From Pseudomonas benzenivorans (GTDB lineage: Bacteria; Pseudomonadota; Gammaproteobacteria; Pseudomonadales; Pseudomonadaceae): a stretch of DNA of 64,000 bases. The stretch lies in contig NZ_FNCT01000013.1 in the NCBI RefSeq assembly GCF_900100495.1, positions 62,001-126,000 on the forward strand. The letters run 5' to 3'. Below, in pieces: positions 28,601 through 46,743 of the stretch (the first letter of the stretch is position 1; each line of letters starts with the position of its first letter). Under the pieces are notes generated by a model. It was not told the DNA's origin. It saw nothing but the letters and a program-made list of their open reading frames with translations, and ran no database searches. Made by a program: the position numbers and the translations under genes.

Positions 28601-29572
28601 ATGGCCGTGCAAGACCTGCTGTCCCAGGATGAAATCGACGCGCTGCTGCATGGCGTCGATGACGGCTTGGTGGAAACCGAGGATGCCGACGAGCCGGGCA
28701 GCGTCAAGCAATATGACCTGACCAGCCAGGATCGCATCGTCCGCGGGCGCATGCCGACCCTGGAAATGATCAACGAGCGCTTCGCCCGCTATACCCGTAT
28801 CAGCATGTTCAACCTGCTGCGCCGTTCGGCGGACGTGGCGGTGGGCGGCGTGCAGGTGATGAAGTTCGGTGAGTACGTGCATTCGCTGTACGTGCCGACC
28901 AGCCTCAACCTGGTGAAGATGAAGCCGCTGCGCGGCACCGGGCTGTTCATCCTGGATGCCAAGCTGGTGTTCAAGCTGGTCGACAACTTCTTCGGCGGCG
29001 ATGGCCGCCACGCCAAGATCGAGGGCCGCGAGTTCACCCCGACCGAGTTGCGGGTGGTGCGCATGGTGCTCGACCAGGCCTTCGTCGACCTGCAGGAAGC
29101 CTGGCATGCGGTGATGGACATCAACTTCGAGTACGTCAACTCGGAGGTCAATCCGGCCCTGGCCAACATCGTCAGCCCCAGCGAAGTCATAGTGGTGTCG
29201 ACCTTCCACATCGAACTGGACGGCGGTGGCGGCGACCTGCACATCACCATGCCCTACTCGATGATCGAGCCGATCCGCGAGATGCTCGATGCCGGCTTCC
29301 AGTCCGATGTCGACGATCAGGACGAGCGCTGGATCAAGTCCCTGCGCGAAGACATCCTCGACGTCAGCGTGCCGCTGGGCGCCACCGTGGCGCGGCGGCA
29401 GCTGAAACTGCGGGACATCCTGCACATGCAGCCGGGCGACGTGATACCGGTGGACATACCCGACAACATCATCATGCGTGCCAACGGCGTGCCGGCTTTC
29501 AAGGTCAAGCTCGGTGCGCACAAGGGCAATCTGGCGCTGCAGGTGCTGGATCCGATCGAGCGCCAGCGCTGA
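28601..29572 (+). CDS. fliM: Flagellar motor switch protein FliM
   Basis: C-ring protein that binds CheY-P and reverses the motor. The N-terminal peptide MAVQDLLSQDEIDALLHGVDDG is the CheY-binding EIDALL motif. The middle CheC-like domain (ERFARYTRISMFNLLRRSADV...FGGDGRHAKIEGREFTPTELRVVRMVLDQAFVDLQEAW) and the C-terminal SpoA domain (DILDVSVPLGATVARRQLKLRDILHMQPGDVIPVDIP) are intact. 323 residues. Confidence 0.97.
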   Translation: MAVQDLLSQDEIDALLHGVDDGLVETEDADEPGSVKQYDLTSQDRIVRGRMPTLEMINERFARYTRISMFNLLRRSADVAVGGVQVMKFGEYVHSLYVPTSLNLVKMKPLRGTGLFILDAKLVFKLVDNFFGGDGRHAKIEGREFTPTELRVVRMVLDQAFVDLQEAWHAVMDINFEYVNSEVNPALANIVSPSEVIVVSTFHIELDGGGGDLHITMPYSMIEPIREMLDAGFQSDVDDQDERWIKSLREDILDVSVPLGATVARRQLKLRDILHMQPGDVIPVDIPDNIIMRANGVPAFKVKLGAHKGNLALQVLDPIERQR

Positions 29573-29632: not shown

Positions 29633-30100
29633 ATGGCCGACGAAAATGAAATCACCTCCCCCGAGGAGCAGGCGCTGGCCGACGAGTGGGCGGCGGCCCT
29701 GTCCGAGTCCGGCGATGTCGCCGGCCAGGACGATATCGATGCCATGCTCGCCGGCGGCGTGAGCAAACCCGCCGCGCCGCGTGCGCCGATGGAGGAGTTC
29801 GGCAGTGCGCCCAAGGGCAATCTGCCGGTCAACCTGGAGGGGCCTAACCTCGATGTGATCCTCGATATCCCGGTGTCGATCTCCATGGAGGTCGGCAACA
29901 CCGACATCACCATCCGCAACCTGTTGCAGCTCAACCAGGGCTCGGTGATCGAGCTCGACCGGCTGGCCGGCGAGCCCTTGGACGTGCTGGTCAACGGCAC
30001 GCTGATCGCCCACGGCGAGGTGGTGGTGGTCAACGAGAAGTTCGGCATCCGCTTGACCGACGTGATCAGCCCGAGCGAACGCATCAAGAAGCTGCGCTGA
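29633..30100 (+). CDS. fliN: Flagellar motor switch protein FliN
   Basis: C-ring base protein and docking site for FliH. The C-terminal SpoA domain is canonical (NLDVILDIPVSISMEVGNTDITIRNLLQLNQGSVIELDRLAGEPLDVLVNGTLIAHGEVVVVNEKFGIRLTDVISPSERIKKLR). The N-terminal extension holds GQDDIDAMLAGG (31-42), which resembles the CheY-binding peptide of FliM. 155 residues, somewhat longer than enteric FliN because of this extension. 60 bp separate it from fliM. Confidence 0.96.
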   Translation: MADENEITSPEEQALADEWAAALSESGDVAGQDDIDAMLAGGVSKPAAPRAPMEEFGSAPKGNLPVNLEGPNLDVILDIPVSISMEVGNTDITIRNLLQLNQGSVIELDRLAGEPLDVLVNGTLIAHGEVVVVNEKFGIRLTDVISPSERIKKLR

Positions 30101-38859: not shown

Positions 38860-39246
38860 TTGGACAAGAACATGAAAATCCTCATCGTTGACGACTTTTC
38901 AACGATGCGACGGATCATCAAGAACCTCCTGCGTGACTTGGGGTTCACCAACACCGCAGAAGCCGACGACGGCACCACCGCGTTGCCGATGCTGCAGAGC
39001 GGCAGCTTCGATTTCCTGGTGACCGACTGGAACATGCCGGGCATGACCGGCATCGACCTGTTGCGTGCGGTGCGCGCCGATGACCGCCTCAAGCACCTGC
39101 CGGTGCTGATGGTCACCGCAGAAGCCAAGCGCGATCAGATCATCGAGGCCGCACAAGCCGGGGTGAACGGTTATGTGGTCAAACCGTTCACCGCCCAGGT
39201 GTTGAAAGAAAAGATTGAAAAAATCTTCGAGCGAGTCAACGGCTGA
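38860..39246 (+). CDS. cheY: Chemotaxis response regulator CheY
   Basis: Single receiver that, phosphorylated by CheA, binds FliM to reverse the motor. From the internal ATG at 38872 it reads [25 protein letters not shown] with the usual 124 residues, phospho-Asp52 (TDWNMPG) and Lys104 (GYVVKPF). GGAGG at 38850-38854 is only 5 nt from TTG 38860 but 17 nt from the ATG, so initiation at TTG (four extra residues) looks more likely. cheZ follows after 19 bp. Confidence 0.95.
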
Positions 39247-39265: not shown

Positions 39266-40054
39266 ATGGAACACAACGATTCCCCTCAGGGCGACCTCGA
39301 GTCGACTCTGAAACTCCACGCTCGCCAGTTGGTGGATAGCCTGGAACACGGCAATTTCGGCGAAGCGGTGCAACTGATCAATGATCTCAACAAGGTGCGC
39401 GACCGTGGCCTGTACCACGAAGTCGGCAAGCTGACGCGCGAGTTGCATAACGCCATCGTCAACTTCCAGCTGGACCCGCGGGTACCGCATGCCAAGGAGG
39501 TGTCGCAAATCGCCGACGCCACCCAGCGCCTGAACTACGTGGTGACGATGACCGAGAATGCGGCCAATCGCACCATGGACCTGGTCGAAGAGAGCGCGCC
39601 GCTGGTCAACGACATAGGCAGCGAGGCGCAGAGCCTGGGCGCCGATTGGGGGCGCTTCATGCGCCGGGAAATGGGCGCCGACGGCTTCCGCGAACTGGCC
39701 AAGCGCATCGAGTTGTTTCTCGCCCGCAGCGAACGCGACAGCGCCAAGCTGTCCGGCCATCTCAACGACATCCTGCTCGCCCAGGACTATCAGGACCTCA
39801 CCGGCCAGGTGATCAAGCGGGTCACCCAACTGGTCACCGAGGTGGAAAGCAACCTGCTCAAGCTGGTGCTGATGGCCAGCCAGGTCGATCGTTTTGCCGG
39901 CATCGAACACGACCACGAGCAGTTACGCGCCGAGCAACAACAACAAAAAGAGCCTTCCCGTGGTGAAGGTCCGCAGATTCATGCCGATAAGCGTGATGAC
40001 GTCGCATCCAACCAGGATGATGTCGACGATCTGCTATCCAGCCTAGGATTTTAG
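39266..40054 (+). CDS. cheZ: CheY-P phosphatase CheZ
   Basis: Dephosphorylates CheY-P. 262 residues, mostly a long helical hairpin. It contains the phosphatase motif in DILLAQDYQDLTGQVIKRVTQLV, in which the Gln of AQDYQDLTGQ is the catalytic residue in E. coli CheZ. The C-terminal peptide NQDDVDDLLSSLGF is the CheY-binding helix, after a flexible linker rich in Gln/Glu. Start at ATG 39266, with GCGAGGGTG just upstream. Confidence 0.96.
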   Translation: MEHNDSPQGDLESTLKLHARQLVDSLEHGNFGEAVQLINDLNKVRDRGLYHEVGKLTRELHNAIVNFQLDPRVPHAKEVSQIADATQRLNYVVTMTENAANRTMDLVEESAPLVNDIGSEAQSLGADWGRFMRREMGADGFRELAKRIELFLARSERDSAKLSGHLNDILLAQDYQDLTGQVIKRVTQLVTEVESNLLKLVLMASQVDRFAGIEHDHEQLRAEQQQQKEPSRGEGPQIHADKRDDVASNQDDVDDLLSSLGF

Positions 40055-40064
40055 GAGCACGTCT

Positions 40065-42221
40065 ATGAGCTTCGGCGCCGATGAAGAAATCCTCCAGGAT
40101 TTCCTGGTAGAGGCCGGCGAGATTCTCGAGCAATTGTCCGAGCAGTTGGTGGAACTCGAAAGCCGCCCGGACGATATGAACCTGCTCAACGCGATTTTTC
40201 GCGGGTTCCACACCGTCAAGGGTGGGGCCGGATTCCTCCAGCTCAACGAGCTGGTGGAGTGCTGCCATATCGCCGAGAACGTCTTCGACATCCTGCGCAA
40301 GGGTGAGCGGCGCGTCGACTCCGAGCTGATGGACGTGGTGCTGGAAGCGCTCGATGCGGTCAACGGCATGTTCGGCGAGGTGCGCGAACGCGTCGAACCG
40401 ACGGCGGCCACCCCCGAGTTGCTGGCGGCCCTGGCGCGCCTGGCCGAGCCGGCCCGGGCAGCCCAGGCGCAGCCTGTCGCTGCACCTGTGGTCGAGGCCG
40501 CGATGGCCGGCGACATCACCGACAGCGAGTTCGAGCAACTGCTCGACGCCCTGGACGAAGCACCGGTGGCGGCGGCCAGTAGTGCCGCCGGCGGCGACGA
40601 AATCACCGACGATGAGTTCGAGTCGCTGCTCGACCAGCTGCATGGCAAGGGCCAGTTCGCCCCGCAGGCTGCGCTCGCGAGCGGCGCTGCGAGCGTTGTG
40701 ACGGCCGGTGGCGATGAAATCACCGACGACGAGTTCGAGGCCTTGCTCGATCAGCTGCACGGCAAGGGCCAGTTTGCTGCGCCTGCGGCCCCCGCGCCGG
40801 CTGCTACGCCTGCCGCCCCGCCCGCCGCCGCTGCCGGTGACGAAATCACCGACGACGAATTCGAGGCGCTGCTCGACCAACTGCATGGCAAAGGCAAGTT
40901 CAGCGAACCGGCCGCGCCGCTCAAGGCGCCCACGCCTGAGCCGGCAAAGCCGGCGCCAGCGGCCAAAGCCGTTGCCAAACCGCTGGCGAAAGCCGAACCG
41001 GCGAAAGCCGCCCCGGCACCGGCAGCGGCGGACAAGACGACACCGGCCAGCGAGGCGGAAACCACGGTGCGGGTCGACACCGCGCGCCTGGACGAGATCA
41101 TGAACATGGTCGGCGAGCTGGTGCTGGTGCGTAACCGCCTGGTGCGCCTGGGCCTGAACAGCGGCGACGAGGCCATGTCCAAGGCAGTGTCCAACCTCGA
41201 CGTGGTCACCGCGGACCTGCAGACGGCGGTGATGAAGACCCGCATGCAGCCGATCAAGAAGGTCTTCGGCCGTTTCCCGCGGCTGGTCCGCGACCTGGCG
41301 CGGCAGCTGAAGAAAGAGATCAACCTGGAGCTGGTCGGCGAAGAGACCGACCTCGACAAGAACCTGGTCGAGGCGCTGGCCGATCCGCTGGTGCACCTGG
41401 TGCGCAACGCCGTCGACCATGGTGTCGAAACCCCCGAGGAGCGCGAGGCCGCCGGCAAGTCGCGTGGCGGCAAGGTGGTGCTGTCGGCGGAACAGGAAGG
41501 CGACCACATCCTGCTGTCGATCTCCGACGACGGCAAGGGCATGGACGCCGAGGTGTTGCGCGCCAAGGCCGTGGAAAAGGGCCTGCTGGACAAGGACGCG
41601 GCCGACCGGCTGAACGAGTTCGAGTGCTACAACCTGATCTTCGCCCCGGGCTTCTCGACCAAGACCGAGATCTCCGACGTGTCCGGCCGCGGGGTCGGCA
41701 TGGATGTGGTGAAGACCAAGATTTCCCAGCTCAACGGCACGGTCAACGTGTTCTCGGTCAAGGGCCAGGGCTCGAAGATCGTCATCAAGGTTCCGCTGAC
41801 CCTGGCGATCATGCCGACCCTGATGGTGATGCTGGGCAACCAGGCGTTCGCCTTCCCGCTGGTCAACGTCAACGAAATCTTCCACCTCGACCTATCGCGT
41901 ACCAACGTGGTCGATGGCCAGGAGGTGGTGATCGTGCGCGACAAGGCGCTGCCGCTGTTCTACCTCAAGCGCTGGCTGGTGCGCAGCGCCGCCCACGAAG
42001 AGCAGCGCGAGGGCCATGTGGTGATTCTTACGGTCGGCAGCCAACGCATTGGCTTCGTCGTCGATCAACTGGTCGGCCAGGAAGAGGTGGTGATCAAGCC
42101 GTTGGGCAAGATGCTGCAAGGCACTCCCGGCATGTCCGGCGCGACCATCACCGGCGATGGCCGCATCGCCCTGATTCTCGACGTGCCGAGCATGCTCAAG
42201 CGTTACGCGCGGCGCATCTGA
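40065..42221 (+). CDS. cheA: Chemotaxis histidine kinase CheA
   Basis: Signalling kinase of the receptor array. Hpt (P1) domain with phospho-His49 (GFHTVKGGAGFLQL); a 220-residue linker (112-333) rich in Ala/Pro with four copies of an acidic motif (see repeat); dimerisation P3 from about 334 (ETTVRVDTARLDEIMNMVGELVLVRNRL); HATPase P4 (LVEALADPLVHLVRNAVDHGVETPEER, SDDGKGMD, SGRGVGMDVVKTKI); CheW-like P5 at the C-terminus. 718 residues. No ordinary globular P2 domain is apparent between P1 and P3. Confidence 0.96.
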   Translation: MSFGADEEILQDFLVEAGEILEQLSEQLVELESRPDDMNLLNAIFRGFHTVKGGAGFLQLNELVECCHIAENVFDILRKGERRVDSELMDVVLEALDAVNGMFGEVRERVEPTAATPELLAALARLAEPARAAQAQPVAAPVVEAAMAGDITDSEFEQLLDALDEAPVAAASSAAGGDEITDDEFESLLDQLHGKGQFAPQAALASGAASVVTAGGDEITDDEFEALLDQLHGKGQFAAPAAPAPAATPAAPPAAAAGDEITDDEFEALLDQLHGKGKFSEPAAPLKAPTPEPAKPAPAAKAVAKPLAKAEPAKAAPAPAAADKTTPASEAETTVRVDTARLDEIMNMVGELVLVRNRLVRLGLNSGDEAMSKAVSNLDVVTADLQTAVMKTRMQPIKKVFGRFPRLVRDLARQLKKEINLELVGEETDLDKNLVEALADPLVHLVRNAVDHGVETPEEREAAGKSRGGKVVLSAEQEGDHILLSISDDGKGMDAEVLRAKAVEKGLLDKDAADRLNEFECYNLIFAPGFSTKTEISDVSGRGVGMDVVKTKISQLNGTVNVFSVKGQGSKIVIKVPLTLAIMPTLMVMLGNQAFAFPLVNVNEIFHLDLSRTNVVDGQEVVIVRDKALPLFYLKRWLVRSAAHEEQREGHVVILTVGSQRIGFVVDQLVGQEEVVIKPLGKMLQGTPGMSGATITGDGRIALILDVPSMLKRYARRI
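40509..40904 (+). repeat. Four-copy repeat in the CheA P1-P3 linker
   Basis: Protein-level repeat: GDITDSEFEQLLDALDE (residues 149-165, degenerate), then three near-identical 23-residue copies of GDEITDDEFExLLDQLHGKG[QK]F at 177-199, 216-238 and 258-280 (nt 40593-40661, 40710-40778, 40836-40904), separated by Ala/Pro spacers. Codon differences between copies show they are not a very recent duplication. Confidence 0.9.
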
Positions 42222-45015: not shown

Positions 45016-45066
45016 GGCGGCGCCTGTTCTCGGTAGGACCTGGGTCGTGCCGGGAGGATGAAGAAC

Positions 45067-45855
45067 ATGAGAGTCTGGGCAGTAGCCAATCAAAAAGGTG
45101 GCGTCGGCAAGACCACCACCGCCATCGCCCTGGCCGGCCTGCTGGCCGACGCCGGCAAGCGCGTGGTGGTGGTCGATCTCGACCCGCACGGGTCGATGAC
45201 CAGCTATTTCGGCCACGATCCGGATTCGCTGGAGCACAGCAATTTCGACCTGTTCCTGCACCAGGGCGGCGTGCCGCAGGGCTTGCCGCAGCAGTTGCTG
45301 CTGCCGACCAGCCATGAGCGCATCAGCCTGCTGCCATCGAGTACCGCGCTGGCCACGCTCGAGCGCCAATCCCCCGGGCAGAGCGGTTTGGGGCTGGTGA
45401 TCGCCAAGAGCCTGACCCAGCTGTGGCAGGAGTTCGATCATGCGGTGATCGACAGCCCGCCCTTGCTGGGGGTGCTGATGGTCAATGCCCTGGCGGCGAG
45501 CCAGCATCTGGTGATTCCGGTGCAGACCGAGTTTCTCGCGGTCAAGGGGCTGGAGCGGATGGTCAGCACCCTGGCGATGATCAATCGGTCGCGCAAGCAG
45601 GCGCTGCCCTATACCATCGTGCCGACCCTGTTCGACCGCCGCACCCAGGCGTCTCTGAGCACCTTGCGCCTGCTGCGCGATGCTCACCCGGAACACCTGT
45701 GGCCGGCCTACATCCCGATCGACACGCGCCTGCGCGATGCCAGCCGGGCGGGGCGCACGCCCTCGCAGTTCGACTCCGGCAGCCGCGGGGTGATCGCCTA
45801 CCGGGCATTGCTCAAGCACCTGCTGGCGCAGCAGCTGGCGGCGCAGGTGGCGTGA
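45067..45855 (+). CDS. parC: ParA-like chemotaxis array positioning ATPase ParC
   Basis: ParA/Soj-family ATPase within the chemotaxis operon, the ParC position, where it directs the array to the cell pole in Vibrio and Pseudomonas. 262 residues with Walker A QKGGVGKTTT (9-18), VVVDLDPHGSMTSYFGHD and DSPPLLGVLMVNALAASQHLVIPVQTEFLAVKGL. GGGAGG at 45052-45057 is adjacent to ATG 45058, so ATG 45067 is preferred. parP follows. Confidence 0.88.
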   Translation: MRVWAVANQKGGVGKTTTAIALAGLLADAGKRVVVVDLDPHGSMTSYFGHDPDSLEHSNFDLFLHQGGVPQGLPQQLLLPTSHERISLLPSSTALATLERQSPGQSGLGLVIAKSLTQLWQEFDHAVIDSPPLLGVLMVNALAASQHLVIPVQTEFLAVKGLERMVSTLAMINRSRKQALPYTIVPTLFDRRTQASLSTLRLLRDAHPEHLWPAYIPIDTRLRDASRAGRTPSQFDSGSRGVIAYRALLKHLLAQQLAAQVA

Positions 45856-45942
45856 GATGAGGAGCGCTGTCGCCCGGGGTCGCTCAAGTCTGTCGCCGCT
45901 GCGGCCGATAGGTTGTACAGGTTATTTTCGCGGATCGCATTT

Positions 45943-46743
45943 ATGAGTCGTCCCGTCGTCATCGCTAGCCGTTCCCAGTTGGCCTTGCAGTCCTACCTGG
46001 ACGGCTTGCTGCAGGAGGCCGCCGTCGAGTTGGCCGAGAGCACCAGCCTGGACGAGTTCGAGGCCGCCGTGCTGCAGGAGCAACTCCGCGACGCCAGCCG
46101 GGTAGCCGTTGCGCCGCGACCCAAACCGCTCGAACCGCTGCCGATTGCCGAGCTGCCGCCGCTGGTGGTCGCCGCGCCGTCGGTGCCGGTGCCGCTTGAG
46201 CCGTCGCGCGCGGTGGCGCTGTCCGAGGTGCAGCCGAATGCCGCGCCGCCGGTGCCGCTGGACGGTCGGCCGGATTGGGCGCAGGGCGCGTTCGAGTGCC
46301 TGCTATTCGATGTCGCCGGCCTGACCCTGGCCGTGCCGCTGGTGTGCCTGGGCTCGATTTATCCGCTGGCCGGGCAGGAGTTGACGCCATTATTTGGCCA
46401 GCCGGACTGGTTTCTCGGCATACTGCCGTGCCAGGCCGGCAACCTGAGAGTCCTGGATACCGCGCGTTGGGTGATGCCCGATCGCTATCGCGAGGATTTT
46501 CGCCAGGGCCTGCAGTACGTGATTTCCGTGCAGGGCTATGAATGGGGGCTGGCGGTGCACCAGGTCAGCCGTTCGATCCGCTTGCAGCCGGACGAGATCA
46601 AGTGGCGCAGCCAGCGTACCCAGCGGCCCTGGCTGGCCGGTACGGTGATCGAGCATATGTGCGCCTTGCTGGATGTGGCGGCGTTGGCCGAATTGATCGC
46701 CAGCGGTGCGGCCAAGCGCATGCGCAATGGGCCGCTGCGCTGA
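45943..46743 (+). CDS. parP: CheW-domain array protein ParP
   Basis: Partner of ParC that joins chemotaxis arrays and CheA. 266 residues. The N-terminal 110 residues are helical then Pro-rich (including SLDEFEAAVLQEQL at 35-48). The C-terminal half is a CheW-like/AIF domain (CLLFDVAGLTLAVPLVCLGSIYPLAGQELTPLFGQPDWFLGILPCQAGNLRVLDTARWVMP). Context parC-parP-cheW matches the Vibrio order. The in-frame TTG at 45913 is a less likely start. Confidence 0.85.
   Translation: MSRPVVIASRSQLALQSYLDGLLQEAAVELAESTSLDEFEAAVLQEQLRDASRVAVAPRPKPLEPLPIAELPPLVVAAPSVPVPLEPSRAVALSEVQPNAAPPVPLDGRPDWAQGAFECLLFDVAGLTLAVPLVCLGSIYPLAGQELTPLFGQPDWFLGILPCQAGNLRVLDTARWVMPDRYREDFRQGLQYVISVQGYEWGLAVHQVSRSIRLQPDEIKWRSQRTQRPWLAGTVIEHMCALLDVAALAELIASGAAKRMRNGPLR

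Follow-up and report, generated by a model that had tools for sequence, protein, structure and literature searches.

The cheA Locus and the Repeats in Its Linker

The window, a stretch of 64,000 nucleotides from Pseudomonas benzenivorans, carries chemotaxis genes in the order flhF, fleN, fliA, cheY, cheZ, cheA, cheB, motC, motD, parC, parP, and cheW. The gene names, that of parC included, are presumptive and rest in part on Pfam matches. The product of cheA matched the Pfam families Hpt, H-kinase_dim, HATPase_c, and CheW. The best PDB matches of the cheY product were 3to5 and 4hns, which we take to be CheY of Vibrio cholerae. Judging from gene order and similarity, this CheA and those like it would be of type F6, a CheA class name found in the literature (PMC7184735, PMC7534058, PMC9855816). 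The features considered here are as follows.

28601..28654, + strand: N-terminal peptide of FliM, EIDALL type, MAVQDLLSQDEIDALLHG
29723..29755, + strand: N-terminal peptide of FliN, GQDDIDAMLAG, a weak likeness
38872..39246, + strand: cheY, proposed ligand (Pfam Response_reg), with R92, Q94, and V103 (E. coli numbering, by alignment)
40007..40051, + strand: C-terminal CheY-binding-type peptide of CheZ, SNQDDVDDLLSSLGF
40065..42221, + strand: cheA, F6-type chemotaxis kinase, 718 aa, with P1, linker, P3, P4, and P5, and no P2
40443..41078, + strand: P1-P3 linker, residues about 127-338, mostly disordered in AlphaFold2 model m1a61a3afadd9
40509..40574, + strand: motif copy 1, degenerate, GDITDSEFEQLLDALDEAPVAA, residues 149-170, score 29.5, predicted helix 154-163
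40596..40661, + strand: motif copy 2, DEITDDEFESLLDQLHGKGQFA, residues 178-199, score 58.7, predicted helix 182-192
40713..40778, + strand: motif copy 3, DEITDDEFEALLDQLHGKGQFA, residues 217-238, score 60.0, predicted helix 221-231
40839..40904, + strand: motif copy 4, DEITDDEFEALLDQLHGKGKFS, residues 259-280, score 61.6, predicted helix 263-274
45058..45855, + strand: parC, ParA-like polar ATPase (Pfam AAA_31, CbiA), adjoining parP
45943..46743, + strand: parP, N-terminal helix and CheW-like (AIF) domain (Pfam CheW, 4.4e-15; profile A1)
45982..46017, + strand: conserved N-terminal helix of ParP, ALQSYLDGLLQE, from the consensus of 20 ParPs
46045..46086, + strand: ParP stretch SLDEFEAAVLQEQL, in Pseudomonadaceae only among the ParP N-termini compared

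The linker between the Hpt and dimerisation domains is Ala/Pro-rich and of low complexity. Within it lie four copies of a motif with the consensus [IM]-[TS]-[DE]-[DE]-E-F-[ED]-x-L-L-D-x-L-H-G-x-G, three of them near-identical and one degenerate. They occupy 40509-40904, exactly the span given in a preliminary description of this DNA. With a position matrix built without the CheA of the window, the four copies scored 29.5-61.6, while the top score among 2880 shuffled linkers was -0.3. Copies 2 and 3 have 21 of 22 residues in common, yet only 57 of 66 bases, and 7 of the 21 common residues are encoded by different codons. Such synonymous differences between near-identical copies mean that the protein sequence is what has been kept, a sign of selection at the peptide level. 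Among 11 cheA genes of Pseudomonadaceae, the DNA identity of copies within a gene was 78% (39 pairs), and that of the last copies between species was 77% (55 pairs). One copy in the window (residues 260-273) also matched the Pfam family SHOCT at 29.6 bits (cut-off 27), so CheAs of this kind may be mislabelled as SHOCT proteins.

Absence of a P2 Domain

No P2/CheY-binding domain was matched by Pfam in the CheA of the window up to an E value of 0.1, nor in any of 28 F6-type CheAs (the window plus 9, 8, and 10). The Pfam CheY-binding family was found in just 2 of 33 non-F6 CheAs and is thus insensitive for P2, as is also stated in PMC10542144. Because Pfam misses P2, linker profiles were compared as well, and AlphaFold2 models were made of the CheA in the window and of a control CheA that has P2. 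When the linkers of F6 CheAs were compared with those of other CheAs, the profiles matched over 38 columns only, at the end of P1, with a probability of 42%; the same comparison for the Vibrio-side set gave 9%, and split-half controls gave 100%. The AlphaFold2 model of the CheA in the window (83 aligned sequences; model numbering is CheA numbering plus 6) contained four isolated short helices, one per motif copy, with 10-residue pLDDT means of about 56-77, in a linker whose remainder was mostly below 50. It had no globular domain between P1 and P3. By comparison, the control CheA, which bears a P2 matched by Pfam CheY-binding (L070; 26 aligned sequences), was modelled with a beta-alpha-beta-beta-alpha-beta fold at 177-244, with pLDDT means of 86-92 across 181-240. 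A P2 that is merely hidden from Pfam was therefore ruled out by the profile comparison and by AlphaFold2 with a control that folded. Thus, as the preliminary description had proposed, P2 is absent and the repeats stand in its place; a globular P2 here, which that description named as a refutation, was not found.

The CheA of Pseudomonas putida has been drawn with a Pfam CheY-binding domain (PMC11978298); this assignment was not reproduced in 10 CheAs of Pseudomonadaceae, searched up to an E value of 1. A PDB search with the repeat segment returned one chance-level match (E 0.82). Two F6-like CheAs, L228 (G479) and L229 (G530), have neither the motif nor P2, and the CheY that occurs with them is of the E. 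coli type. Beside the cheA of L228 lie two CheV-like genes, each joining CheW and a receiver.

Distribution of the Motif

The CheA of the window served as query against 274 genomes of the class. The loci taken were 60 with flanks, 80 named ones around a CheY of the V. cholerae type (chiefly from Vibrio, Photobacterium, Shewanella, and Aeromonas), and further stretches. They yielded 177 CheA frames longer than 550 aa, whose scores were bimodal (431 or less vs. 484 or more); 144 were F6-type (score 480 or more) and 33 were others. The motif was present in 141 of the 144 F6-type CheAs, in none of the 33 others, and in none of the 2880 shuffled linkers. The first of these fractions is a description, since the matrix had been refined by iteration on those F6-type CheAs that were later counted, the window being left out. 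Three copies were most common (93 CheAs), followed by two (29), four (13), one (6), and none (3). On inspection by eye, two degenerate copies can be made out in L067, one of the three CheAs scored as motif-less; L228 and L229 have none.

Independently of the CheA calls, profile A4, built from 33 motif copies, found the motif in 108 of the 274 genomes. A CheA match better than 1e-120 also occurred in 108 genomes, 106 of which had the motif. The exceptions were G025 (degenerate copies), G214 (a CheA fragment without the linker), G151 (a divergent CheA with one motif copy), and G228. The G228 locus (L252) appears to be what is left of a decayed cheA and contains a stop as well as motif copies; the other member of its genus here, G111, has a full-length CheA match. 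In G172 (L062), a run of N in the assembly breaks cheA, the first part of which contains two copies of the motif. Across families the motif is kept as the same 18-column pattern. The preliminary description had called for a survey of CheA linkers in Pseudomonas for copy number and loss of P2: copy number indeed varies, from none to four, and P2 was found in none of the F6-type CheAs searched, but the array is not specific to Pseudomonas. The array is real, conserved, and widespread, and it is a trait of F6-type CheA as a whole.

A literature search by title and start of abstract, with subscription papers and preprints largely outside its scope, returned no account of repeats in CheA, and four peptide strings, looked up in full texts, led to no paper on a chemotaxis protein by title.

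CheY Residues and the Motif

Q94 occurred in 141 of 142 CheYs grouped with motif-bearing CheAs and in none of 10 from genomes with a motif-less CheA, these being counts of sequences and not of events on the CheY tree. The CheYs of the motif-less genomes had K92 (10 of 10) and A103 (9 of 10). No motif match was found in nine of these genomes (G479, G530, G272, G171, G013, G107, G224, G467, and G506), and the tenth, G349, gave two weak partial matches of 17 bits. The two motif-less F6-like CheAs, L228 and L229, are accompanied by a CheY of this second type. The grouping dropped L165, L120, L157, L172, and L131, in which CheA was missing from the locus or cut short, and the duplicates L235, L237, L239, and L240. 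N94 was found in three CheYs beside motif-bearing CheAs (L058, G172, and G151); L062 (G172) and L236 (G151), both N94, were moved to the motif side later. Two of the 142, those of G093 and G028 (L233 and L234), have Q94; the assemblies of both genomes are fragmented, and no motif was found in them. They reflect either missing sequence or a real exception, and if they are counted with the motif-less set, Q94 occurs there in 2 of 12.

The same residues have been noticed before: R92K, Q94N, and V103A were reported as P2-facing differences between the CheYs of F6 CheA and those that work with F7 (Ortega and colleagues, PMC7184735). In Pseudomonas aeruginosa, CheY-EYFP overlaps the polar CheA cluster (PMC12410967), so arrays of this kind do hold CheY.

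Likeness to CheY-Binding Peptides

The core of the CheA motif, F-[ED]-x-L-L-D-x-L, aligns with V-D-D-L-L-S-S-L of CheZ and I-D-A-L-L of FliM. According to the position matrix and the predicted helices, which are of middling AlphaFold2 confidence, the motif conforms to a helical E-phi-[DE]-x-L-L core. The tail of CheZ binds the same face of CheY as the EIDALL peptide of FliM. The latter sits in the CheY groove between alpha4 and alpha5 (PMC9126983).

The peptides quoted in the preliminary description, SNQDDVDDLLSSLGF of CheZ, SQDEIDALLHG of FliM, GQDDIDAMLAG of FliN, and SLDEFEAAVLQEQL of ParP, are all present. We scored them with the CheA matrix against 16260 16-mers of real proteins, a test that slightly favours the FliM, FliN, and ParP peptides because they are 18-20 residues long. 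The fraction of 16-mers scoring as well was 1.8e-4 for FliM, 5.5e-4 for CheZ, 1.0e-3 for ParP, and 5.5e-3 for FliN. When position was ignored among the 301 ORFs of the window, many of them spurious, FliM ranked 6th, CheZ 10th, ParP 11th, and FliN 57th. The likeness of the CheA motif to the CheZ and FliM peptides is thus statistically visible but modest, and it is unremarkable without the restriction on position. The idea of a common core therefore stands, in this modest form, for CheZ and FliM, while FliN, with its weak likeness, was rejected as a candidate CheY binder. The ParP stretch, which had been described as a related motif, is lineage-specific among the ParP N-termini compared.

ParP, ParC, and the LID

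The preliminary description passed over a published function of this part of CheA in Vibrio. In Vibrio, an extra part of CheA before P3, the LID, binds the AIF domain of ParP and is said to occur only with ParC and ParP (PMC5706961, PMC7534058); the assignment to ParP rests on two-hybrid work (PMC5706961). We found a motif-bearing linker before P3 in Vibrio, Shewanella, and Aeromonas loci too, which fits the placement of the LID. The Vibrio linkers compared contain the motif three times, including copies missed by a strict pattern, and are otherwise little alike. The published LID of Vibrio is therefore, from this comparison, very likely the motif array. Both parC and parP are present in the window (45058-46743); P. 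aeruginosa is reported to have no related genes (PMC12410967).

ParP was in view beside 112 of the 144 F6-type CheAs. Genome-wide profile searches overturned the status of eight genomes that had seemed ParP-less by neighbourhood (G165, G356, G543, G012, G204, G220, G103, and G138). Profile A1 gave at least 120 bits in G000, G204, G122, G103, G220, G160, and G403, with ParP on another contig than cheA in G204, G220, and G103, and a weak but real-looking match of 41 bits in G138. This profile misses a divergent ParP-like protein of family f14, which is present in G165, G356, and G543, and in G012 by profile A6, so that absence of ParP is judged by both profiles. Ten genomes gave matches at CheW level (35 bits or less) or nothing with profile A1: G010, G022, G170, G025, G172, G473, G056, G267, G156, and G148. 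Because A1 can miss f14 forms, these ten were also searched with profile A6, built from three f14 ParP-like proteins; it gave 50-73 bits, at the CheW end only, against 253 in G012 and 689 in G356. The 66-bit match of G473, at C13:64615, belongs to a frame of 328 aa and was judged by its CheW end. ParC was not found in the first six of the ten, where the best matches reached 109-133 bits; the second ParA of the window's genome gave 134 bits, and genomes with parC in the cluster gave 186 or more. The remaining four (G056, G267, G156, and G148) have ParC, with no ParP found.

All ten keep the motif: three copies in G473; two in G172, G010, and G156; one in G022, G170, G056, G267, and G148; and two degenerate copies in G025. 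The six that yielded no ParC and no ParP belong to five families. Since the motif persists where neither was found, ParP is unlikely to be its sole reader, and the motif follows the P2-less F6 type of CheA and not ParP; ParP seems unneeded for the upkeep of the motif, which seems to outlast it. Some of the ParP-less genomes fall within clades that have ParP, on branches most of which are unstarred. At least two copies were present in 111 of the 112 CheAs with ParP at the locus, and the mean was 2.84, vs. 1.4 in the 10 without ParP (Mann-Whitney p 2.4e-4, 43 vs. 10, ignoring kinship). On the tree, which has long branches that meet and an unsure order of basal lineages, only two well-supported (starred) independent contrasts exist, and the relation was not significant. 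A rise of copy number with ParP was dropped as a claimed effect, the independent contrasts being too few.

ParP itself has some resemblance to the array. Its conserved N-terminal helix (QxALxxYLDxLLxE), as noted for the ParPs of the window, L170, L150, and L094, resembles the core of the CheA motif, most of all in Vibrionaceae (DDYFxALLDE; DDYFEALLDDL). The ParP-like protein of G543 (L226:3341-4741, - strand) starts with ALDDYLRDLL, ends in a CheW-like part, and carries LITDDEFEALLDQLHGGAAPG in its long linker. It gave the only full motif match in 7974 non-CheA frames (score 51; the next was 7.8), which suggests that the motif could be a portable recruiting tag. G543 has two more motif copies, in a frame of 454 aa at the beginning of a different contig; this frame is probably the front of its CheA.

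What the Repeats May Bind

We propose that in F6-type CheA the globular P2 is replaced by a tandem array of docking motifs, each a short stretch that forms a helix. Each motif would most likely bind CheY on the alpha4/alpha5 face, as the N-terminus of FliM and the C-terminus of CheZ do, and the disordered arm would keep CheY near phosphorylated P1 through weak, repeated contacts; the receiver domain of CheB is perhaps another ligand. Docking of CheY is the best single reading of the repeats, and we put its probability at roughly 0.5, so that the CheY-docking interpretation in the preliminary description, as judged from sequence comparisons, is partly supported. Several points count against it. 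Acidic amphipathic helices with paired leucines are common, and five ORFs of the window, some of them spurious, beat FliM on the CheA core, and nine beat CheZ. The F6-like CheAs of G479 and G530 do without both the motif and P2. The two-hybrid assignment of a LID in this part of Vibrio CheA to ParP, the higher copy number with ParP, and the exceptions to the pattern at CheY residue 94 count against it as well.

The main and serious rival is that the repeats are the LID only: they would dock the AIF domain of ParP, thereby anchoring the array at the pole and stabilising it, and CheY would have no role. The published position and partner of the LID and its restriction to organisms with ParC and ParP (PMC5706961, PMC7534058), the Vibrio linkers that share little beyond the motif copies, the presence of ParP beside most F6-type CheAs, and the higher copy number with ParP all argue for it. 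Nevertheless, we consider it rather unlikely, because the motif is kept in six genomes where the profiles found no ParC and no ParP, and in another four that have ParC but gave no ParP. Docking of CheY and docking of ParP can both hold. In ParC/ParP lineages some copies may also act as the published LID gripped by the AIF domain, CheY taking one copy and ParP the others, or both competing. Such dual use is a case of CheY docking, and its odds lie within those given above. The motif is near-universal in F6-type CheA, and the ten ParP-less genomes have up to three copies but mostly one or two, where ParP genomes mostly have three, as would be expected of shared use; against this, the sequences compared fall into no clear copy types by eye, and the contrast in copy number is not significant on the tree. 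On balance, dual use is a real possibility but less likely than not.

Two other readings fit less well. The motif could serve a different partner (CheW, CheV, P4/P5 of CheA, or a chaperone) or act as an intramolecular clamp on P1 or P4, and both the AlphaFold2 output, with no sign of confident placement of the motif helices, and the perfect motif in one ParP-like protein would be compatible with this; the likeness of the motif is to CheY ligands, nothing here favours these partners, and we regard the idea as improbable. That the repeats are partnerless spacers, kept by gene conversion or composition, might be suggested by their Ala/Pro-rich, low-complexity surroundings. This explanation is very hard to maintain, given the same 18-column motif across families, the synonymous differences between copies, and a DNA identity between the copies of one gene that is about the same as that between the last copies of different species.

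Returning to CheY docking, its fullest form is tentative and rather doubtful as a whole: in F6-type CheA, a repeated FliM/CheZ-like motif would have taken over from P2. The kinase would then vie with the phosphatase and the motor for a single face of CheY, each by the same kind of peptide. In organisms with ParC and ParP the same copies would be read by ParP too, and the loading of CheY would be coupled to the polar anchoring of arrays. Among surveyed CheA proteins, over half have no P2 (PMC10542144). A defined motif, widespread in the chemotaxis kinases of gammaproteobacteria, bears on how such kinases hold CheY, and a flexible linker bearing between one and four copies suggests how they may do so; the motif also offers mutable residues and natural copy-number variants. 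In addition, the published account of the LID is put in question, since a part tied to ParC and ParP is kept where neither was found.

Comparison with Known Systems

The CheA array occupies the same position between P1 and P3 as the P2 domain of E. coli and Thermotoga maritima, and the same job is proposed for it. P2 is a folded domain, whereas the array is a disordered arm with short predicted helices and without a sequence or profile match to P2. The LID of Vibrio CheA and the array lie in the same place before P3 in orthologous CheAs, and the Vibrio linkers compared carry the motif too; the array differs in being kept also where neither ParC nor ParP was found, and the LID accounts consulted describe no repeated motif. 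In sequence, the array resembles the EIDALL peptide of FliM and FliY and the C-terminal peptide of CheZ. The CheA motif differs from these peptides in being internal, repeated, and usually followed by H-G-x-G, and in that its CheY binding is putative, but it has in common with them an acidic helix with the core phi-[DE]-x-L-L, and the CheZ peptide has a further leucine at the spacing of the CheA motif.
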